Origin: Polymorphobacter multimanifer
Lineage (GTDB): Bacteria; Pseudomonadota; Alphaproteobacteria; Sphingomonadales; Sphingomonadaceae
Direction: 5' to 3'
DNA: 64,000 nucleotides
NCBI RefSeq assembly: GCF_014205635.1
Contig: NZ_JACIIV010000022.1
Location: 1-64,000, forward strand
Part shown: one piece after another, positions 14,741-64,000 of the stretch
How the letters are laid out: the number at the start of each line of letters is the position of its first letter
Position numbering within the stretch: the first letter of the stretch is position 1
Notes under the pieces: model-generated
The model's input: the letters and a program-made list of their open reading frames with translations, nothing else
The model's database searches: none
What the model was told of the DNA's origin: nothing
Translations under genes and position numbers: made by a program

Positions 14741-15133
14741 TCAACCTGCGACCGCAGCGCCGTCTTCCTTCCGGAAGTCCGACGGCGGCCGCGCCTCGAG
14801 CACTTCGAGAACCCTCTCCGAAGGACGTGCAAGCACGATGCCCCTCGGTGTGATCACCACAGGCCGATTGATCAGGATCGGGTGCTCCACCATCGCGGCA
14901 AGAATGGTGGCATCATCGGCATTGTCGAGCCCCATCTCGTCCGCCGGCGTGCCCTTGGTGCGCAGGAGCGCACGGGCGCCACCCACGGCTTGAGCTGCGG
15001 CGGCCAGCGCCGCGGAGTCCGGCGGTGTGTCGAGATAATGCAGGACCTCGGGCTCGACGCCAGTTGCGCGGATCATCGCCAGCGCGTTGCGCGACGTGCC
15101 GCATTTAGGGTTGTGCCAGATCACCACACTCAT
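14741..15133 (-). CDS. arsC: arsenate reductase ArsC family protein (glutaredoxin-linked)
   Basis: The protein begins SVVIWHNPKCGTSRNALAMI, the catalytic HNPxCxTSR motif of the thioredoxin-fold ArsC family. LLRTKGTPADEMGL and the LINRPVVITPRGIVLARPSE segment, with the conserved arginines that bind arsenate, follow. It would reduce arsenate to arsenite with glutathione and glutaredoxin. No arsB, arsR or acr3 lies nearby, so this may be a housekeeping ArsC/YfgD-type protein rather than part of an ars operon. The chosen ATG gives about 130 residues; an alternative in-frame ATG lies six codons upstream. Plus-strand G/C composition changes sign across this gene. Confidence 0.9.
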   Translation of the reverse strand: MSVVIWHNPKCGTSRNALAMIRATGVEPEVLHYLDTPPDSAALAAAAQAVGGARALLRTKGTPADEMGLDNADDATILAAMVEHPILINRPVVITPRGIVLARPSERVLEVLEARPPSDFRKEDGAAVAG

Positions 15134-48700: not shown

Positions 48701-49062
48701 TCGACCAGGATCTGGTGAACCCCGGCTTGCGTGAACTGGGTGTGCCGGAATGGTCGGGCTTCGGCTCGGTCAGCTACAACCGTGGTCCGTTCTCGATGAC
48801 CTATGGCGTGCAGTTCGTGCAATCGACGGCTGCGGCATCGGTGATCGAGATCGAGCGCATCGATGAAGAATTCGGGCCGGCGGGCTTTGCGCCGGATTAC
48901 TGGATCCACACCGTCAGCTTCAACTTCGACGCCACGCGGGAGCTGTCGTTCTACGGCGGTGTCAACAACCTGACCAACGCGGTCCCGTACATTTCGAGCT
49001 CGGCCTATCCGGTATCGGGTGTGGGGCGGTTCTTCTTCCTGGGTGCGCGCGTGCGGCTCTGA
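45760..49062 (+). CDS. TonB-dependent outer membrane receptor (second)
   Basis: The 1100-residue protein has a signal peptide (VSAFALLSVPGLLPTAAQA), a TonB box-like TAIVVTGSRLRR, a plug domain (NLRQLGANRTLVVVDG, VEVLTGGASAIYGADAVTGVV) and a long barrel ending GARVRL. At several points the barrel follows the first receptor in the window (FDVKEVFGEINLP, NVNGTWAPIRDIRFRG, AIRAPNIAELFDPEQG). This shows that the two are distant members of the same subfamily. It imports an unknown ligand. It ends at a hairpin terminator shared with the convergent cydC. Nothing around it suggests the substrate; putP is the divergent neighbour. Confidence 0.96.
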   Translation: MVISSRAAFRSAVSAFALLSVPGLLPTAAQAQEVAAAVDVDDETAIVVTGSRLRRDPNATAPLPISTLTSDDFRNAGNTDVTATLRQIPALLSSSTVADSIERGPVNGGAGQATLNLRQLGANRTLVVVDGWRHVSGVQGTQTVDVSTIPNALIERVEVLTGGASAIYGADAVTGVVNYVLKRDFEGLAIDAQSGISSRGDGQSYRIEGTLGKNFAGGRGNVTLSLGYTNDAEVLFSDREFTRDNGRGNNSTTYGNPLKRFQRGEINPSTMPNFAARFRLGGPGGAATRFPFGAVIPTAEQVATLFPGGITAAERALVDRAEAAPLFAIGADPRFAISSGAGLIFRGDFGFFNADVNGNGISDCNESYIGRTGFGGGGCYISQADGSVKVFEDGIISTGSNQFGGDGAVERTNTSSLTPGSERINGNLRASFEAAPEARLWFDAKYARNNSTIRNNYNTFYDSLLIFPDNPFIPAALQSQANVGGGLRISRDFLDLGPGITTANRDTYRIVGGVDGDLTPHLRYEFVANYGRTDNSTTFSNSVRYDRLFAAIDVIRHPVTGQPVCRSDFDPTPHPGSEIFPVIAPGFFTFRPGDGSCRPGNILRGEQSLSQAAVDFITTPTTTRARLEQTVITGLLSGDTGGFFNLPGGAVGFVAGFEYRKEKSQTTFDDLRLGLLPAGSPAGAQGTFIGDIEPQNQALIFDPSNRTRNAGGSFDVKEVFGEINLPLLRDTPFFHELTVGGAGRYANYSTVGDTFTWNVNGTWAPIRDIRFRGTYARAIRAPNIAELFDPEQGATFRPSDPCNQTQLDSLVRGNSPVAANRVANCRADGIPVGYEDPLTARFGGVSGGNVNLTEERATTWTVGAVVQPRFLPGLTLSGDYYSIRIDDAIQAVTAQNIVNTCYDLATFPNSFCQLFTRNRTPASATFLGFNFLRQTQINFARLDTSGVDFSADYRFAVGQNNIALRVAGNWTEKLDRFFDPVDQDLVNPGLRELGVPEWSGFGSVSYNRGPFSMTYGVQFVQSTAAASVIEIERIDEEFGPAGFAPDYWIHTVSFNFDATRELSFYGGVNNLTNAVPYISSSAYPVSGVGRFFFLGARVRL

Positions 49063-49085
49063 CGCACCCTGTTGGCTGACAAGAT

Positions 49086-49119
49086 GGGCGGCTCCTGCAA
49101 AGGGGCCGCCCTTCCTGCT
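49086..49119. terminator. hairpin terminator between TonB receptor and cydC
   Basis: A 10-bp GC-rich stem (GGGCGGCTCC / GGGGCCGCCC, one G-U pair, loop TGCAAA) lies in the 57 bases between two convergent genes. TTCCTGCTT follows it. It probably ends transcription of the TonB receptor and may act on the cydDC transcript coming the other way. Confidence 0.7.
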
Positions 49120-50709
49120 TCAGAGATGGATGCGCTGCCCGGTGAGGGCCAGCGGGGCGGGGCGGTGGCTGGTGAGGATGAGGCCGGTGCCGGTGGCATC
49201 GAGCCACATCCCGAGGCGGCGGACCAACTCGGCCTCGCTGGTGGCGTCCAGGCCCTCGGTGGGCTCGTCGAGGAGGAGCCAGGGGCGGCGGGCGAGGAGG
49301 GCGCGGGCCAGCGACAGGCGCTTGCGCTGGCCGCCGGAGAATTGCCCTGCACCTTCGCCGAGCCAGTGATCGAGGCCGCCTGTGAGAGCGCGGACATCGT
49401 CGGCGAGGCAGGCGGTCTCAAGCGCGTCCCACAGGGCGGCATCATCGAGACCGGGGGCGGCGAGGCGAAGATTGTCGGCGACCGAGCCGGCGATGAGCAC
49501 CGGCGACTGGGGGGCGCAGGCGAAGCGGGCACCGAGCGTGGCAAAGGCGATTTCCGCCACTGGCACGCCGCCGAGCTGCAGCGATTGCGGGGCATCGGCG
49601 CGCCAGCCGGCAAGCGATTCCAGAATGCGGGTCTTGCCGCTCCCCGAGGCGCCGGTGAGGGCGAGGCGGCCGCCGGGGAGGAGCTGGTGGCCGGCGATGG
49701 TGAGGGCCTCCCCGACTGGCGCCGGGGCGGGGAGGACGGTATCGGCGCCGAGACCGGTGAGCCGGTCCCTGGCGGCTGCAAGGGCTGCATCCTTGCCGCG
49801 GGCGCGGATGAAGGCGCCCTGGACTTCGGCACCGCCGGCGGCAGCAAGGGCTGCGAGCGCTGCGAGGGGGGCGCTGGCACCGCCAAGGGCTGCGGCGGCG
49901 GCGACGAGGGCGGCGAGCACCGGCCCGGCGGCGACGAGGACGCCGGCGAGCCAGGCCTCGCCGCGGACCATGCGCGCACGGGCTGCGTCCATGGCGGCGG
50001 CTTCGGCGATGACGGCGCTGCTGACAGGGTCGGCGAGGCCATAGACGGCGATTTCGGCGCCCGCAGCGAGCTGGTCGGTGACGAGCGCTTTCAGCGCCGA
50101 GGCGCGTGCCTGGGCTTCTGCAGCCGGGCCGTCGACCATGCGGGTGGCGACGCGGCCGGCGAGGCGGGGCAGGGCGAGGAGGCCGGTGGCGAGGAGGAGG
50201 GCGGGGGCAGGGCCGGCGAGCAGGGCGAGCAGCACGGCGAGGACACCGCCGGCGATGGCGGCGGGGCGTGCGGGGCTGCGGATGATGGCGTCTTCGAGCG
50301 CATCGACATCTTGCGTGAGGCGAGCGACGCCATCGCCGAGCATCAGGTCCCGCGTGGCACGCGGATCGCGGCTGGCAAGCTGGCCGAAGAGCTGCACCCG
50401 GACGGTGGCGAGGGCCCCCAGGGCGGCTTCGTGGCTCCAGAGGCGCTCGAAATAGCGGCCGCCGGTGCGGACCACCGCGGCGAGGCGGATGGTGGCGGAG
50501 GGGAGGAGGTAGTTGAAGGCGGCGACGCTGCCGAGGAGCCCGGCGAGGGCGGCGCCGGTGAGGAACCAGCCGGCGACGCCGAGCAGCGCCACGCCGGCGA
50601 GGGCGGCAGCGGCGGCGACAAGGCCGGCGCGGCGGAGTGCGGGCGTGTGCGCGGCGGCATCGAGCACCTGCTGCATCGCGTCGGCGGGGCGGGGAGTGAG
50701 GGCGGTCAT
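49120..50709 (-). CDS. cydC: thiol reductant ABC exporter subunit CydC
   Basis: CydC with CydD exports glutathione and cysteine to the periplasm and is needed to assemble cytochrome bd. The 529-residue protein has an N-terminal six-helix ABC membrane domain (GVALLGVAGWFLTGAALAGL, FNYLLPSATIRLAAVVRTG, GRYFERLWSHEA) and a C-terminal ATPase with Walker A LTGASGSGKT, signature FSGGQRKRLSLARALL and Walker B LLLDEPTEGLD. GRYFERLxSHEA is diagnostic for CydC. Its ATG overlaps the cydD TGA by four bases. The helices are unusually alanine-rich. Confidence 0.95.
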   Translation of the reverse strand: MTALTPRPADAMQQVLDAAAHTPALRRAGLVAAAAALAGVALLGVAGWFLTGAALAGLLGSVAAFNYLLPSATIRLAAVVRTGGRYFERLWSHEAALGALATVRVQLFGQLASRDPRATRDLMLGDGVARLTQDVDALEDAIIRSPARPAAIAGGVLAVLLALLAGPAPALLLATGLLALPRLAGRVATRMVDGPAAEAQARASALKALVTDQLAAGAEIAVYGLADPVSSAVIAEAAAMDAARARMVRGEAWLAGVLVAAGPVLAALVAAAAALGGASAPLAALAALAAAGGAEVQGAFIRARGKDAALAAARDRLTGLGADTVLPAPAPVGEALTIAGHQLLPGGRLALTGASGSGKTRILESLAGWRADAPQSLQLGGVPVAEIAFATLGARFACAPQSPVLIAGSVADNLRLAAPGLDDAALWDALETACLADDVRALTGGLDHWLGEGAGQFSGGQRKRLSLARALLARRPWLLLDEPTEGLDATSEAELVRRLGMWLDATGTGLILTSHRPAPLALTGQRIHL

Positions 50710-52289
50710 GCGAGATCGAGCCGGGAATCGGCGGCGGCGGCAAGTGCTGGATCATGGGTGGCGACAACGACGGCGTGGGTGGAGGCGAGGCGGCGCAGCG
50801 TGGCGATGATGGCGTCGGCGGTGGTTGCATCGAGATCGGCGGTGGGCTCGTCGAGCAGCAGCAGCGGGCGGCCGCTCGCCAGCGCACGGGCGAGGCCGAG
50901 GCGGCGGCGCTCGCCGCCCGACAGGCCCGAGCCGGCGGCATCGAGCGGAGCTTCGTCGCCGCCGCGGGCGGCGAGCAGCGGGGCAAGGCCCGAGGCTTCG
51001 AGGGCGTGTGCGATGGTGGCGGGGTTTCCGCCGCCGAGCGCCACATTGTCGGCGATGCTGCCGGCCATGACGAGCGGGCGCTGGCCGGCCCAGGCGGCAG
51101 CGGTGGCAGTGCCGGCGGTCCAGTCGAGGGTGCCGGCGTGGAGGGGTTGCAGCCCGGCCAGCGCGGCGAGCAGGCTGGACTTGCCGCAGCCGCTGGGGCC
51201 GGTGATGGCGATGAGGCCGGTGGCGGGGACGGCGAGGCTGACCGGGCCGACCGCGACCTTGCCATCATAGGCGACCGCGACGCCGGCAAGGGTGACGCCG
51301 GTGAACACGGTGCTGCGCGGCGGGGACGCTGCGGGAGCTGGCAGCTCGATATCGAGGGCGAGCGAAGCAGCTTCGCCGGTCTGGCGGTCGTGATAGGCGG
51401 CGGCGAGGCGGCGCATGGGAAGGTAGAATTCGGGGGCGAGGGCGAGGGCGAAGAAGGCGGCGGTGAGGCCGAGATTTTCGGGGGCGGGGAAGGGCAGCAG
51501 GCCGAGGAGGCTGAAGCCGCAATAAAGGGCGACGATGGCGACCGACAGGGCGGCAAGGAATTCGAGGATGCCGCTCGAAATGAAGGCGATGCGGAGCAGC
51601 GCCAGTGTGCGATCCGCGACTTCGGTGCTCGCCTGGCCGAGGTGGCTGGCGATGCGGGCCTCGGCGCCGAAGCTGCGGATTTCGGCAAGCGCACGCAGCC
51701 GGTCCGCGAACAGGCCGCCGAGCCGGCCGATGGCGGTGAGCTGGCGATCGGCGGCGGCGCGAGCGGCTCCGCCGGCGATGATCATGCCGATGGTGAAGGG
51801 GATGAGGGTGAGCAGCAGGATGCCGGCCGCGACCGGGCTGGCGATGGCGACCGCACCTGCAACGAGCAGTGGTGCGATGCGCGCAGCGCGGGCGAGCGGC
51901 TGGTAGCGGGCGGCGAGGCCCTCGATGGCCTCGATCTGGTCGACGGCGCGTGCCGCATCCTCGCCGGCCATGCGGGCACGGGCATGGGCGGTGGCGAAGA
52001 GCAGCGGCAGGTGGCGCGCGCGCAGCCGTGCCTTGAGATCGATGGCGGCGGCCATGCCGGCTTCCGCCGCGCGCGCCTGGGCCGCGGCGCGCACGAGGCC
52101 GGAGACGAGCATTGCTGCAAGGCCGCCGAGCACCGGCACGAGGCCGCCCCAGCAGCCTATGGTGAAAGCCAGCCCGGCGGCGAATAGGAAGGCGCCGGCG
52201 AGATCGGCGAGCCACCAGAGCGAGGCGCGGCGCAACGCCGCAGAACGCGGTGCGAAGGAACCGGAGGGGGTTGTGGCAGCGGCGGTCAC
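50706..52289 (-). CDS. cydD: thiol reductant ABC exporter subunit CydD
   Basis: The 527-residue half-transporter pairs with CydC. The membrane domain spans about residues 20-300 (LADLAGAFLFAAGLAFTIG, AAGILLLTLIPFTIGMIIAG, ILEFLAALSVAIVALYCGF with the YCGFSLLG typical of CydD). The ATPase has Walker A ITGPSGCGKSSLL, signature LSGGERRRLGLARAL and Walker B LLLDEPTADLD. The start is a GTG preceded by GGAG six bases away; upstream open frame without similarity was ignored. It is divergent from cydA across 99 bases, so the exporter and the oxidase may be co-regulated. I found no clear FNR box there. Confidence 0.94.
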   Translation of the reverse strand: MTAAATTPSGSFAPRSAALRRASLWWLADLAGAFLFAAGLAFTIGCWGGLVPVLGGLAAMLVSGLVRAAAQARAAEAGMAAAIDLKARLRARHLPLLFATAHARARMAGEDAARAVDQIEAIEGLAARYQPLARAARIAPLLVAGAVAIASPVAAGILLLTLIPFTIGMIIAGGAARAAADRQLTAIGRLGGLFADRLRALAEIRSFGAEARIASHLGQASTEVADRTLALLRIAFISSGILEFLAALSVAIVALYCGFSLLGLLPFPAPENLGLTAAFFALALAPEFYLPMRRLAAAYHDRQTGEAASLALDIELPAPAASPPRSTVFTGVTLAGVAVAYDGKVAVGPVSLAVPATGLIAITGPSGCGKSSLLAALAGLQPLHAGTLDWTAGTATAAAWAGQRPLVMAGSIADNVALGGGNPATIAHALEASGLAPLLAARGGDEAPLDAAGSGLSGGERRRLGLARALASGRPLLLLDEPTADLDATTADAIIATLRRLASTHAVVVATHDPALAAAADSRLDLA

Positions 52290-59889: not shown

Positions 59890-59966
59890 GCATCCGTAGC
59901 TCAGCTGGATAGAGTACTGCCCTCCGAAGGCAGGGGTCACAGGTTCGAATCCTGTCGGGTGCACCA
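59890..59966 (+). tRNA. tRNA-Arg (anticodon CCG)
   Basis: The 77-base cloverleaf has acceptor GCATCCG/CGGGTGC (one G-U pair) and an encoded CCA end. The D-arm is GCTCAGCTGGATAGAGT, the anticodon stem CTGCC/GGCAG with loop CTCCGAA (anticodon CCG, reading CGG), and the T-arm ACAGG-TTCGAAT-CCTGT. tRNA-Arg genes are common attachment sites for integrative elements, and the DNA to its right changes character. No integrase gene is seen in the adjacent kilobases. Confidence 0.97.
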
Positions 59967-60279
59967 TAAAATCAAAGAGTTACCGAAACCCCGATTGCAG
60001 CGTACGGAATTTGTACGGAAAAATGGGGTAGTCATGTCGCGATTGTCTTTTTCAGCGGGGTTCAGGTTCAAACCCTGATGCGCCCAAAGTTTTCTCAACG
60101 GTCGAGACGCCACAGCGTCAACAAATCCGTCCCTTATAGGTGCCACCCGGAGCCGTTGAAAATGGCCAGCCGCACTTGGAGATGGCTTGCTAAGGCCTAA
60201 CGGGCGGGGGCCAAAGTGCATTTTATTGGGCGTTGGATAGTGATATTCTCCCAGCCCATGAATCCCTGCCGAAACCCGA
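59967..60279. other. tRNA-proximal island boundary, non-coding
   Basis: These 313 bases hold no credible gene. They contain the direct repeat GTACGGAA (60002-60009 and 60013-60020), a T-arm-like tRNA remnant at 60062-60086 and AT-richer sequence than the chromosome to the left. This is what an element end next to a tRNA often looks like after rearrangement. A frame running back over the tRNA is spurious. Confidence 0.5.
60062..60086 (+). other. tRNA 3' end-like fragment (possible att remnant)
   Basis: TCAGG-TTCAAAC-CCTGA forms a perfect 5-bp T-arm with a 7-base loop, followed by TGCGCCCA, which looks like the 3' half of an acceptor stem. No D-arm or anticodon arm precedes it. It may be a relic of another integration event at a tRNA gene or of a displaced tRNA end. 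Confidence 0.5.
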
Positions 60280-61506
60280 ATGAAATTTTCGCGGCTTGCC
60301 ACCGCCAAAGAAGCCATTGCTGACATCATGCTAGCGCCAGACCGCAGATGGAGCATCTTCGAAGATCTGGCGAATCAGCACTGTCCCGACGACATTCGGC
60401 GTGGCCGCGCGCAAATTCGCGATGAACTTGCCGTTTGCGAGGCCTGGATCGAACGTTGGACCACGCGGCTGAATCGTATCCGGCGGATTGCGATTGCCGT
60501 CGTCGCCACTTCTATCGCCGTCATGGTCGCAAACGCGTTCGGTCTTTGGCCATCAGGGCCATGGCTCACTGTTGCCGCTGGTTCCGTACTGGTGTGGGGG
60601 ATTTGCGTAGCGGCACCGGTATGGTTGCAAATGCCATTCCTGGGTTGGTCGAAGCGGTTTCCGTTGAACGATGAGCGGCTGGACGCCCTGAAGGCATACC
60701 TCTCGGCAGCAGCGGCCAGTACGGAACCCTTGCATGACCACGATGGCAATGCGGTTGCCTCGGATTTTTTGATGAACCCATGGGCTGTTTTGCTATTCTC
60801 GGAACGCGAAGAAATCCGGCAGCTGCCGACGTTCGGCTCGAAAGGGCTTCGCCGCGTCCGCTACGCCAAGTGGCTCACTACAGACAGGCCGTTCGCGAAC
60901 GAATTGCCTCAGGTCATGGGCACCGCCGCGCCCCCCGTCACGATTCTCCTCGATCGCAGTGTTACGAACATCGATCGACGAACCCAGCATCTGACAGTGG
61001 AGCAGCGAAGCACCACGATCCAGACCAACAACCATTTCCAATTCATTACCCAGATTAGCGCTCAGGCCGACGCTATGGCGCGAAGGGCGCCAGAAGACGG
61101 GCGGACTGAACACGACGCTAGCCCTGCTAAAGTCCGCTGGCCTTGCACGTTCGAGGATGCCGATTTCCTTATCCGACTTCAGATATTTGAAACCACCGCA
61201 CTTTGCGAAGCGAAGCAAAGGGTCGAGCCACACCAGATCAAGAAGTATGTCATTGCCGTATTGACAGCGCGGCGTCTCTGGCTCGCCAACCCAACCAAGG
61301 ATATCGCCTCGGTCGCAGAGGAGATTGGCGAGCTGGTCAAATCAAACACGGATGGCTGGGCTGGATTGCGAAAATCTGATTCGATCGATTGGATAAAGCC
61401 GGTGATCAGCGGCACCGGCAACTACGCTTTCGTCAAGGAAGTGTTCAGCGCGATATCCTATGATACAGCCGAATACGACAACGCACAGTATCGTCTATTA
61501 TTGTAA
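60280..61506 (+). CDS. two-helix membrane protein of unknown function (island)
   Basis: The 408-residue protein belongs to no family I recognise. Residues 1-66 are cytoplasmic and charged (WSIFEDLANQHCPDDIRRGR). Two helices follow at about 68-90 and 94-116. A region of about 290 residues is probably cytoplasmic: an aspartate/proline linker, a beta-rich segment with VTILLDRSVTNIDRRTQHL and QTNNHFQFITQISAQADAM, and a C-terminal helical part. Composition is lower in GC and less alanine-rich than the chromosomal genes. It is the first gene after the tRNA and could be a cargo or defence gene. Nothing in the sequence identifies a catalytic site. Confidence 0.75.
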   Translation: MKFSRLATAKEAIADIMLAPDRRWSIFEDLANQHCPDDIRRGRAQIRDELAVCEAWIERWTTRLNRIRRIAIAVVATSIAVMVANAFGLWPSGPWLTVAAGSVLVWGICVAAPVWLQMPFLGWSKRFPLNDERLDALKAYLSAAAASTEPLHDHDGNAVASDFLMNPWAVLLFSEREEIRQLPTFGSKGLRRVRYAKWLTTDRPFANELPQVMGTAAPPVTILLDRSVTNIDRRTQHLTVEQRSTTIQTNNHFQFITQISAQADAMARRAPEDGRTEHDASPAKVRWPCTFEDADFLIRLQIFETTALCEAKQRVEPHQIKKYVIAVLTARRLWLANPTKDIASVAEEIGELVKSNTDGWAGLRKSDSIDWIKPVISGTGNYAFVKEVFSAISYDTAEYDNAQYRLLL

Positions 61507-61580
61507 TAATGCGCGATAAGCACCTGTTCCCATAGACTTGCTGGACCCAAATTGACCTTTCGCAATTGTGCGAGAGGAGA

Positions 61581-61814
61581 ATGGACGTGCACCCATCAGA
61601 ACCAGACGGATTGGTCTCGATAAGGGCATTGATGTCGCTCATTTCGGTCACCAGCCGGGCTACGGTCTACAAGTATATCAACGAGGTTCCCGACTTTCCG
61701 CAGCCTTGCCAATTCGGCGTTCGCCGGGGCCGGGTCCGGTTCAAGGCATCCGACGTCAGCCGCTACATCGAATCCCTGCCATCAAAGCCCAAGCGGAACG
61801 AACGACGGGATTGA
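61581..61814 (+). CDS. AlpA-like / MerR-fold transcriptional regulator
   Basis: The 77-residue protein resembles the AlpA/excisionase family: GLVSIRALMSLISVTSRATVYKYI (helix-turn-helix), VPDFPQPCQFGVRRGRVRFKA and SDVSRYIESL. In integrative elements such proteins regulate excision or the integrase gene. The ATG has an excellent GAGAGGAGA ribosome-binding site. Its presence supports the element being a mobile island rather than chromosomal DNA. Confidence 0.88.
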   Translation: MDVHPSEPDGLVSIRALMSLISVTSRATVYKYINEVPDFPQPCQFGVRRGRVRFKASDVSRYIESLPSKPKRNERRD

Positions 61815-61918
61815 ACTGCAGTCGATTGCTTCCCTGTCGGCGCCTCGCCGCGCGAGGTCAAATCGTCAGCGCGCTTTGGCCATCGCCTATTCTCACAATC
61901 TCAACCTGAGGATTTGTC

Positions 61919-62416
61919 ATGAAACACGCCCCCAACCTTATCCTTGAAATCTTCGCCTCAGACGATTTTCAGCACAAGCTGATCGCTCCAATGATTGATG
62001 CATTTGTGAGCCGTCTCAGCCGGCCGGGAGACGACGGCAAAACCTACCGCTCGTTCATCCTGGATTGGTTGTATTTGGAACGCCCGATGCTCGACCGCTT
62101 CATTGGCGAGCGGTTCAATGTCCAGTTCGAAGGCCCGGCACTCAACGTTGACGGGATCGACTACCCCCTCGGCGGTTACATTGAACGTCAAATTGAATGG
62201 GTCAAGATCGACCCGGTTGAGGCAATTGCCTTGCGCACCAGACTGCGTGCGGCAGTCGATGCCGTGGTCACGGAGTGGATGGGCGGAAAGCCCATGAAAT
62301 TCCTTCCTGCGGTCGTGGTGAAAACCATGCTTGATCGTGCGGCAGCGGATGCCAAAGACGCGCAGACCATCCGCGACTTCCTGGGCTCCACCGCAAAGCC
62401 CGAGGGAGACCGCTGA
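61919..62416 (+). CDS. island protein of unknown function
   Basis: The 165-residue protein is mainly helical with acidic and basic patches: LILEIFASDDFQHKLIAPMI, SFILDWLYLERPMLDRFIGE, VDGIDYPLGGYIERQIEWV and FLPAVVVKTMLDRAAADAK. I recognise no domain. It lies 104 bases after the regulator gene, and its TGA shares a base with the next ATG (TGATG). Its position upstream of a coupling protein suggests a role in DNA transfer or its control, but this is inference. Confidence 0.7.
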   Translation: MKHAPNLILEIFASDDFQHKLIAPMIDAFVSRLSRPGDDGKTYRSFILDWLYLERPMLDRFIGERFNVQFEGPALNVDGIDYPLGGYIERQIEWVKIDPVEAIALRTRLRAAVDAVVTEWMGGKPMKFLPAVVVKTMLDRAAADAKDAQTIRDFLGSTAKPEGDR

Positions 62417-62634
62417 TGCTCATCACGATCGACATTCTGGATTGCGAAACCGGCTGCGATGCTACGCATCGAGCCAGTATTTCAGATACACACCCTACTC
62501 TCGTGCCGAGAGCGCGTTTCATGCAGCGTTTAAGGAAGCGCCGCGCTTGCTCGAAATCCGGGCCGCCAGAACGGCATTGCATTTCAGTGTCTTCGTTGGA
62601 AGCGCCGAGCAAGCGCCAGGACGGCAGGTCATGA
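62416..62634 (+). CDS. small island ORF, possibly frameshifted
   Basis: The 72-residue frame is bracketed by coupled starts and stops (TGATG at its start, ATGA at its end), which argues for a real gene. Its first 18 residues (MLITIDILDCETGCDATH) look protein-like. The rest (RLRKRRACSKSGPPERH) looks poor, whereas another frame over the same bases reads RYTPYSRAESAFHAAFKEA and LLEIRAARTALHFSVFVG, in phase with the downstream gene. Either a frameshift has occurred near 62470 or a different gene structure exists. Treat the product as uncertain. Confidence 0.4.
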   Translation: MLITIDILDCETGCDATHRASISDTHPTLVPRARFMQRLRKRRACSKSGPPERHCISVSSLEAPSKRQDGRS

Positions 62635-63002
62635 CGTGGGTCAAGCACAACATCCGATTGTCTCCGGCGCAGAACCGGGCGCTTGTCGGCTATGCCGCGC
62701 AGCGCGGCGTGACCCGATACAAGATGCTTGGCCGCGTCGTTGATCACGGTTTGGCGGCTATCGAAAGCGGCGTCACCGCCCCTTCGGACATGCAGGACAT
62801 TACCAATGAGCTTGCGGCAATCAGCATCCGTTTTGCCGAGCTTGAGCGCGTTCTGGACCGTGCTTTGTTCACCGCTTGCGCCGGCTACAGCTATGCCCGC
62901 CAGGCGGCGCTTGGCGGACGGCGCAGCGACGAGGCCATCACTGCCGAGGCGATTGCCGCCTATGAGCGCCAGCGCAGCTTGGCCAGCGAGGTGTCATCAT
63001 GA
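62631..63002 (+). CDS. ribbon-helix-helix-like island protein, possible relaxosome or regulator component
   Basis: The 123-residue protein begins MTWVKHNIRLSPAQNRALVG and continues YAAQRGVTRYKMLGRVVDHG, which has the beta-helix-helix look of ribbon-helix-helix DNA-binding proteins, followed by a helical C-terminal half (ERVLDRALFTACAGYSYARQ). It overlaps the coupling protein gene by four bases (ATGA), so the two are co-translated. A role as a relaxosome accessory (MobC/TraY-like) is plausible but not shown by any catalytic motif. Confidence 0.6.
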   Translation: MTWVKHNIRLSPAQNRALVGYAAQRGVTRYKMLGRVVDHGLAAIESGVTAPSDMQDITNELAAISIRFAELERVLDRALFTACAGYSYARQAALGGRRSDEAITAEAIAAYERQRSLASEVSS

Positions 63003-64000
63003 ACCGCATCGACGATCGCCACAGCCATGCTCAGGCGCTTTGGGGTTTGCGGATCAGGAACCAGACCAAGCGCATCGGCTTTGCCATGCAGCTCTTGCTG
63101 GTATCGACCGCCTCAGGCGCTTTCCTGTTGCCGTCGCAGACGCTCGACAAGGGCGAGTTCACCCAGGCGTCCAACTATGGGATGGCGAAGACGTTCGCAT
63201 GGTTTGCACGTGACGCCGCGAGAACGCCCAAACTCAGGGTCACGCGACTTGGGCAGCGTATCAAAATGCCGGTTGATGAAGTTGTCGCCGACAGCGTCTT
63301 CGCAGCCAGCGCAGATTTGGTCGTCAGCAAAACGCTGTTGGGCGCCGGGCTTGGTTTCATTATCGGCAGCGGGCTGGTCTATTTCCTCATCCGCAACATC
63401 CGCAAAAGTGGTGACCAGGCTTTCAAGGACCGGGTAATTGGCGGGACACAGATTGTCAGCGAGGCGGCGCTTGCCGCATTGACCCAGCCAATGGCTGGCA
63501 AGCAGCCTATCACAATCGGGCGCATCGCTGTCCCGACCTCCATCGAAACCCGCCACTTCGCAATGATCGGCACCACCGGCAGCGGCAAGACCACCGTCTT
63601 GCGCCAAACGCTCGATTGCGTCGAAGCACGAGGTGAAGCGGCCATCGTTTACGACACCAGCGGCGAGTTCATTGCCCACTACTATCGGCCCGAGCGCGGC
63701 GACATCATCCTCAACCCGTTCGATGACCGTTGCGCCTTCTGGTCGCCGTTTGACGAAATCGCCCATCCCGCCGACGCCGACCGCATCGCCCACCAGCTGA
63801 TTTCCGAGACAGGCAGCCATGACGACGATGTCTGGCTGGAAACCAGCCGCATCCTCGTTGCGAACATGCTTCGCGCCCTCTGGTCCGAGGGTAATTGCAG
63901 CCTTGAGGCGTTGCTCGATGCCCTGCAAACCAAAGACACCGACGAGCTAAAACGCTGGCTTGGCCAGACATCGAGCGCGCGCACCTTTGCCGAAGGTGCC
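62999..64000 (+). CDS. traD: type IV secretion coupling protein TraD/VirD4-like (partial)
   Basis: The first 334 residues are present; the gene runs off the window. The N-terminus has two hydrophobic segments (IGFAMQLLLVSTASGAFLLP at about 26-45, then LLGAGLGFIIGSGLVYFLI at about 113-131), as in T4CPs of the TrwB/TraD group. The nucleotide-binding domain starts with PTSIETRHFAMIGTTGSGKT; the Walker A GTTGSGKT is at 191-198. IVYDTSGEFIAHYY and RGDIILNPFDDRC follow in the style of TrwB. It would couple a relaxase-DNA complex to a mating-pore apparatus. This is the strongest evidence that the island is conjugative. Confidence 0.9.
   Translation, partial: MNRIDDRHSHAQALWGLRIRNQTKRIGFAMQLLLVSTASGAFLLPSQTLDKGEFTQASNYGMAKTFAWFARDAARTPKLRVTRLGQRIKMPVDEVVADSVFAASADLVVSKTLLGAGLGFIIGSGLVYFLIRNIRKSGDQAFKDRVIGGTQIVSEAALAALTQPMAGKQPITIGRIAVPTSIETRHFAMIGTTGSGKTTVLRQTLDCVEARGEAAIVYDTSGEFIAHYYRPERGDIILNPFDDRCAFWSPFDEIAHPADADRIAHQLISETGSHDDDVWLETSRILVANMLRALWSEGNCSLEALLDALQTKDTDELKRWLGQTSSARTFAEGA

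Follow-up and report, generated by a model that had tools for sequence, protein, structure and literature searches.

Integrative mobilisable elements (IMEs) that carry a relaxase have been described as the iMOB class, in the part of the source used here (PMC11389934). The sections of a 2017 review drawn on here know of no canonical IME with a MobF relaxase, and describe a VirD4 coupling protein encoded by the IME itself only alongside MobC (PMC5704250). In the sections of a 2021 Mesorhizobium study drawn on here, IMEs are called MOBF, one 40-kb IME beside tRNA-Thr has a lone MOBF gene, and IMEs without traACD contain a virD4-like gene; because of these reports, MobF IMEs are not new in kind (PMC8627217). 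Here, we analyse a window of 64,000 bases from Polymorphobacter multimanifer (bases 1-64000 of contig C22, which has 69,911 bases, in an assembly of 3.92 Mb and 72 contigs). An earlier note, made from the letters of this window, had described its right end as a conjugative island beginning at tRNA-Arg(CCG). An island does start at the tRNA but the word 'conjugative' is not supported, as we find no VirB4 gene in it. The locus is very probably the left end of an IME in tRNA-Arg(CCG) and not of a conjugative element, because a relaxase, a coupling protein and a site resembling an origin of transfer (oriT) are present but VirB4 is not.

Attachment sites, integrase and contig order

The window contains a single tRNA gene, close to its right end, and both composition and gene types change to the right of it, as the earlier note had described. 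GC content is 0.672 over positions 1-59889 versus 0.580 over 60001-64000 (67% falling to 58%), and 4-kb sliding windows on its left side average 0.673 (standard deviation 0.015, minimum 0.642). To the right follow a membrane gene, an AlpA-like gene, a ribbon-helix-helix (RHH) gene and a coupling protein gene. The features of the left boundary are:

59890-59966, plus strand: tRNA-Arg(CCG), found with ARAGORN; the target gene, which stays whole
59917-59966, plus strand: left attachment core, of which 49 of 50 bases recur at C63:1207-1256, the last 45 (from 59922) identically
60002-60020, plus strand: two GTACGGAA direct repeats with 11 bp spacing, likely integrase arm sites

A search of the genome with the tRNA region returned one near-identical copy of the 3' end besides the tRNA itself, the copy on contig C63; the other matches were weaker (75-83%, or 26 bp). 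The tRNA 3' end had been proposed as the attachment site, with an integrase at the far end, and both were located outside the window: left of the second core lies a tyrosine integrase gene (int1; C63:42-1076, minus strand) that faces inward and is without its C-terminus. Each core is flanked by one GTACGGAA pair, the second at C63:1094/1105. No further pairs occur in the window, C48 or C63; single copies elsewhere are confined to window positions 60719 (+) and 60582 (-), with zero in C48. An integrase adjoining the tRNA was rejected, in agreement with the earlier note; the first gene to the right (60280-61506) has no Pfam or NCBIfam match and looks like a membrane protein.

Two split genes tie the window's contig to C63 through a third contig, C48. 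In a relative of int1 from locus L140 (420 aa, 68% identical), residues 34-360 map to C63 and residues 354-420 to C48. An MmeI-type gene breaks off near the end of C22, and the MmeI of locus L086 locates its lost C-terminus on C48, the two ends of which therefore hold the MmeI C-terminus and the int1 C-terminus, respectively. The C22/C48 junction has matching terminal inverted repeats and a 9-bp target duplication, and the C48/C63 junction has inverted repeats and a 6-bp target duplication; judging from their ends, we take these insertions to be IS66-like and IS21-like, respectively. From the two split genes, the two duplications and the shared arm sites we infer the order C22-C48-C63. As the joins fall inside split genes with target duplications, there would be room only for the insertion sequences themselves, and the island minus these insertions would measure about 24 kb as the sum of its parts. 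The insertion in int1 lies ahead of the last ~60 of its ~420 residues. Because the element's own integrase is interrupted, self-excision appears unlikely and the island is probably stuck in this strain.

Homologues of int1 were absent from 80 relaxase loci (tblastn, 1e-4) and present in 7 of 20 genomes, where two matches are clear (68% and 51%) and lie off the relaxase's contig and five are weak, two of the latter being the far-end integrases of L064 and L077. A different integrase gene, int2 (DUF6538 and PF00589), starts just right of the right-end core, in the region C63:1257-3481 (locus L010, GC content 0.53), placed as if another element stood there in tandem; its far end was not found, and among the loci compared int2 has no homologue besides itself.

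The same site was compared across the genus in 20 stretches from 19 genomes. A conserved core gene right of the tRNA, which would mark an empty site, was not found, and no gene there is common to more than a few stretches. L122 and L123 contain one shared element, and L134 and L138 have the same flank. A second copy of the tRNA 3' end lies downstream in four of the 20 (L121-L124), and L138 has its copy on another contig. Because of these extra copies the tRNA-Arg(CCG) site looks like an insertion hotspot.

Transfer module, mating channel and candidate helper

All genes from the tRNA to the MmeI-type gene are on the plus strand, in the order 408-aa protein, AlpA-like protein, P165, RHH-like protein, coupling protein, MobF relaxase and MmeI-type enzyme. 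The features that concern transfer are:

61919-62416, plus strand: 165-aa protein, P165
62452-62512, plus strand: oriT-like site, made up of an inverted repeat, a block and a hairpin
62457-62471, plus strand: inverted repeat CGATGC-TAC-GCATCG, part of the oriT-like site
62486-62494, plus strand: ATACACACC block, part of the oriT-like site
62498-62512, plus strand: hairpin CTCTCG-TGC-CGAGAG, part of the oriT-like site
62631-63002, plus strand: RHH-like protein, 123 aa, start most likely at 62631
62999-64000, plus strand: TrwB/TraD-type coupling protein (PF10412 TrwB_AAD_bind, E-value 5e-128), running on to C22:64819

The relaxase that the earlier note advised looking for is encoded just beyond the window (C22:64756-67575, plus strand). 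It matches NF041492 with 282.8 bits (cut-off 100), PF08751 with 297.3 bits (cut-off 25) and PF13604 with 152.8 bits (cut-off 27), and belongs to MOBF by its TrwC-type domain above the curated cut-off and its C-terminal helicase. The RHH, TraD and MobF frames and the oriT hairpin are intact.

The words found most often upstream of TraD cluster ~545-490 bp before that gene, between the P165 and RHH genes. A pattern built from them (at most two mismatches) detected 47 sites in 33 of 51 genomes, and its reversed control none. The positive genomes comprise 31 of 34 reached via relaxase loci, the genome studied here, and one of 16 genus or family relatives; our genome contains one site, at 62457-62494. 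The inverted repeat exists in two compensated forms, CGATGC/GCATCG and CGATAC/GTATCG. A hairpin of at least 4 bp within 24 nt past the CACC block occurs in 30 of 31 distinct sequences (from 69 of 81 loci; L114 has none), against a mean of 8.8 and a maximum of 17 of 31 in 500 runs of letter shuffles, a comparison that is flattered by the kinship of the sequences. The hairpin of the island lies near the usual place, with a sequence peculiar to this site. We regard 62452-62512 as a candidate oriT, a variant of the conserved site. A longer open reading frame (ORF) in the RHH frame reads through it. The RHH-like protein has no Pfam match; its predicted structure (pLDDT 83.9, pTM 0.48) has only weak PDB matches, none with an E-value under 0.001, the best of which (TacA2, MatP, PutA, NikA, CopG) we take to be mostly RHH proteins. 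It is likely a part of the relaxosome. The model of P165 (pLDDT 86.5) has no structural match in the PDB with an E-value under 0.001.

Mating-pair formation genes, which the earlier note also proposed to look for, were not found in the island: queries for VirB4, VirB6, VirB8, VirB9, VirB10, TrbI and transglycosylase gave no match in L009, L010 or C48. The element thus has attachment repeats (given the contig order above), an integrase gene of its own, albeit interrupted, and no mating-pair formation system that we could find, whereas an integrative conjugative element (ICE) would have the complete set. The sole VirB4 detected in this genome lies on contig C37 (locus L195), outside the island, in a cluster with VirB6/TrbL, VirB8, VirB9/CagX and VirB10/TrbI domains. 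VirB4 (PF03135) occurs in 14 of 14 genomes examined for it, never on the module's contig at less than 150 kb from the module, to the extent that the contigs cover this distance. It also occurs in 28 of 33 further genomes, for some of which contig names could not be matched to records.

The form of oriT common among the relatives (query from L040) matches five records of a plasmid collection. The two best are Sphingopyxis indica pMC4 (95.7% over 92% of the query) and Blastomonas sp. RAC04 pBSY18_2 (92.0% over 99%). Both encode RHH, TraD and MobF, the last 64.5% (pMC4) and 62.9% (pBSY18_2) identical to the island's relaxase, and both have a row of trbB, TrbC, VirB3, trbE, trbJ, trbK-alt, trbL, trbF, trbG and TrbI. 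Trb-type plasmids with the same oriT and transfer module are the likely helper type.

These observations suggest how the element would have moved. The far-end tyrosine integrase would recombine a core identical to the 3' half of the tRNA, so that the tRNA stays intact and a further core copy comes to stand at the right end. Transfer would involve a nick by the MobF relaxase in the oriT-like site, which lies between the P165 and RHH genes, and delivery of the relaxosome to the element's own TrwB/TraD coupling protein. Exit would be through a mating channel supplied by a different element, for which a Trb-type conjugative plasmid or ICE with a similar oriT/RHH/TraD/MobF module is the most likely candidate. 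In this strain the island would stay fixed unless an integrase acts in trans. What had been loosely a 'conjugative island' can thereby be described as an element with defined bounds, an attachment site, a predicted oriT and a helper type that can be named. Since plasmids with trb genes have the same oriT, the question of the helper is open to direct testing.

Relatives and competing readings

A relaxase scan of the genome collection gave 142 encoding stretches, of which the best 80 were kept, mostly from Sphingomonadales. TraD is present in all 80, RHH in 78 and P165 in 71. Among the nine loci without P165, four (L051, L062, L097, L115) start within the module or immediately next to it, and in five (L046, L055, L071, L095, L109) a lytic transglycosylase gene takes its place upstream of oriT; six P165-bearing loci have a transglycosylase gene too, ~5 kb further upstream. 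P165 was found only in forms without DUF2840, signal peptidase and transglycosylase genes beside oriT. In a sample of 149 genomes of the family, 15 encode the coupling protein, our own counted, which together with the 142 relaxase stretches makes the module common in the family. The upstream tRNA differs among loci (Gly, Cys, Pro, Met, Ser and Lys, with Arg(CCG) in L085 and L102), and many have none.

Longer stretches were examined for 14 loci, 13 of them with a plus-strand tRNA. In five of the 13 the 3' end of the tRNA recurs exactly over 22 nt, bounding elements of 44.1, 37.1, 27.2, 21.3 and 22.4 kb. As on C63, the far end of all five has an inward-facing PF00589 gene, which is a 265-aa ORF in L085 and has 418-439 aa in the other four, and none of the five contains VirB4. 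Relatives in which the far-end integrase frame is whole include Erythrobacter oryzae COR-2 and Sphingomonas cavernae K2R01-6. Ten selected cargo proteins from three of them include, in the first, type I methyltransferase and specificity subunits with PtuA; in the second, a type IIG enzyme and candidate system PDC-S18, with one protein lacking a match; and in the third, a type I system with PrrC.

Several points weigh against an IME that uses a Trb-type helper. The contig order is inferred from split genes, target duplications and arm sites. Eight of the 13 tRNA-bearing stretches have no exact tRNA repeat; some of these end early at a contig end, and others are tRNA-Gly(CCC) or Ser loci with an integrase beside the tRNA. 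The VirB4 of the genome itself sits in a VirB-type cluster, and a TrbE-like second match was not seen. In PLSDB, pBSY18_2 is classed as no more than mobilizable, and pMC4 is listed as conjugative, with MOBP/MPF_T. VirB4 lies close to a related relaxase in L055 and L095 and probably in L109 (from coordinates only), and the wider relaxase family therefore also sits in conjugative elements. Finally, to the right of the ACACACC block the island's oriT-like site no longer follows the common form, and the island's MobF is on a long branch (0.5) in a tree of 83 relaxases; because of these two features the fit of this site to a Trb-type helper is less sure than that of its relatives.

Of the alternatives, the one that survives best concerns present activity and is compatible with an IME origin: the island may be a dead relic, a former IME that is now a fixed defence island, which we consider an even call. 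The integrase is cut ahead of its last ~60 of ~420 residues, the MmeI gene is cut too, and L197 looks like a deletion relic of such an element, but the oriT hairpin is preserved, as are the frames of RHH, TraD and MobF, and an integrase acting in trans might still mobilise the island. A full ICE whose channel genes were missed through the fragmented assembly is very unlikely. The same relaxase module does occur with downstream VirB4/trb genes in L055, L095, pMC4 and pBSY18_2, and probably in L109, but here each of the two joins falls within a split gene that shows a target duplication, C37 has the only VirB4 that was found, and P165, which the island has, is missing from those loci and plasmids where transglycosylase or trb genes adjoin the module. 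We rejected the full ICE, VirB4 having been found neither in the island nor in the five bounded relatives. Least credible of all is that the C63 core copy and integrase belong to an unrelated element, as the different integrase just right of that core might suggest, since the lost ends of int1 and of the island's MmeI share contig C48 and the arm-site pair is common to both ends.

Returning to the IME and its kin, a quick tree of 83 relaxases needs five changes to place the seven rows labelled trb (L046 and L071 labelled by transglycosylase alone), at least three of them forced by starred branches, which suggests repeated movement of the module between forms. More tentatively, and less probably than not, a sphingomonad IME family may exchange its oriT-RHH-TraD-MobF module with Trb-type plasmids in several switches, the AlpA/P165 end replacing DUF2840, signal peptidase and transglycosylase, and defence or metal-resistance cargo replacing trb; P165 might then be the factor by which the element commandeers the channel of its helper or regulates it.

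Stand-alone oriT copies were considered as relaxase-free satellites and rejected. Eight copies in four genomes have no adjoining MobF. Two, both in Sphingopyxis sp. H073, look like deletion relics: L197 has oriT with a truncated RHH near tRNA-Pro, and L196 has oriT, RHH and a truncated TraD beside a TrbI-like gene (labelled by eye). L198 and L200 are at or near contig ends. Three IME-like copies in Sphingomonas cavernae (L199, L201, L202) lie near a 967-aa relaxase-helicase gene that is not MobF and that we take to be TraA-type. The P. multimanifer genome also has a second relaxase-helicase-like frame (C21:30208-33033), pieces of which are 37% and 32% identical to the island's MobF.

Remaining genes and comparison with known systems

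Two further genes lie between the tRNA and the transfer module:

60280-61506, plus strand: 408-aa protein at the left-end position, with two hydrophobic segments that start at residues 66 and 93
61566-61814, plus strand: AlpA/HTH_17-like protein (PF05930, E-value 5e-4)

The 408-aa protein is 46% identical to its counterpart in L108, beside tRNA-Lys. Across this and related loci, left-end genes fall into several sequence families of ~280-410 aa; in a simple hydropathy scan, most of the members listed have one or two hydrophobic stretches around the N-terminal third. The AlpA-like ORF scores 20.3 bits against PF05930, just under the cut-off of 21, and is 79% identical to its L108 counterpart; it is likely an excision or regulatory factor.

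The cargo, as predicted from its domains, is made up of anti-phage and anti-restriction genes, MmeI, Gabija, ArdC and Fic among them. On C48 (locus L194) the order is a 285-aa orphan, a helicase (PF00270/PF04851), T5orf172, GajA, GajB, Fic/DUF4172, an ArdC-like gene, mobile mystery proteins A and B, and the integrase end. GajA (C48:4994-6703, E-value 1.4e-185) and GajB (C48:6700-8619, E-value 4.8e-268) are adjacent, the gene set expected of Gabija. The domains of MmeI are present; its frame is split between C22 and C48 by the insertion, and the island has no unbroken MmeI-type restriction enzyme frame. The row of orphan, helicase and T5orf172 genes upstream of Gabija (C48:835-4997) is possibly a further defence system. 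Elsewhere in the window, GC skew shifts from ~-0.2 to ~+0.1 near position 15000, which may reflect an origin or terminus of replication, or a switch in the strand that the genes occupy, and GC content rises to 0.73-0.76 across three kilobases at 49001-52000.

Of the systems compared, pMC4 and pBSY18_2 share with the island the oriT-like site, RHH (41-42%), TraD (55-58%) and MobF (63-65%) in the same order. Unlike the island, they have the trbB-to-TrbI row and, upstream, genes for DUF2840, a signal peptidase and a lytic transglycosylase, and they lack P165. In the F plasmid, which is nicked beside its CACACCCCACGCA block, that block and a hairpin lie upstream of traM and are common to F and many of the relatives, L058 having all 13 bases; the island's own site shares only CACACCC with F, followed in both by a hairpin. 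The trwABC region of R388 has an order similar to the island's oriT-like site, RHH gene, coupling protein and relaxase. In contrast to the transfer regions of F and R388, the island has no pilus or channel genes.

In the part of its source used here, pPDL2 of Sphingobium fuliginis is likewise a sphingomonad element called an IME whose attachment site matches a tRNA 3' end, but it is a plasmid with a RepB-type protein, and tra genes were not detected there (PMC3516476). In the sections drawn on here, 25 of the Mesorhizobium IMEs have a Ti-like traACD locus, unlike the island (PMC8627217). We recognised no description of this sphingomonad IME family in the parts seen of the open-licence literature searched. 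As described in the part of the source drawn on, iMOB elements are, like the island, chromosomal, with a relaxase and without a mating-pair formation system, and have an oriT, for which the island has a candidate (PMC11389934); the island differs in encoding a coupling protein too. It is a sphingomonad variant of an already known kind of IME.

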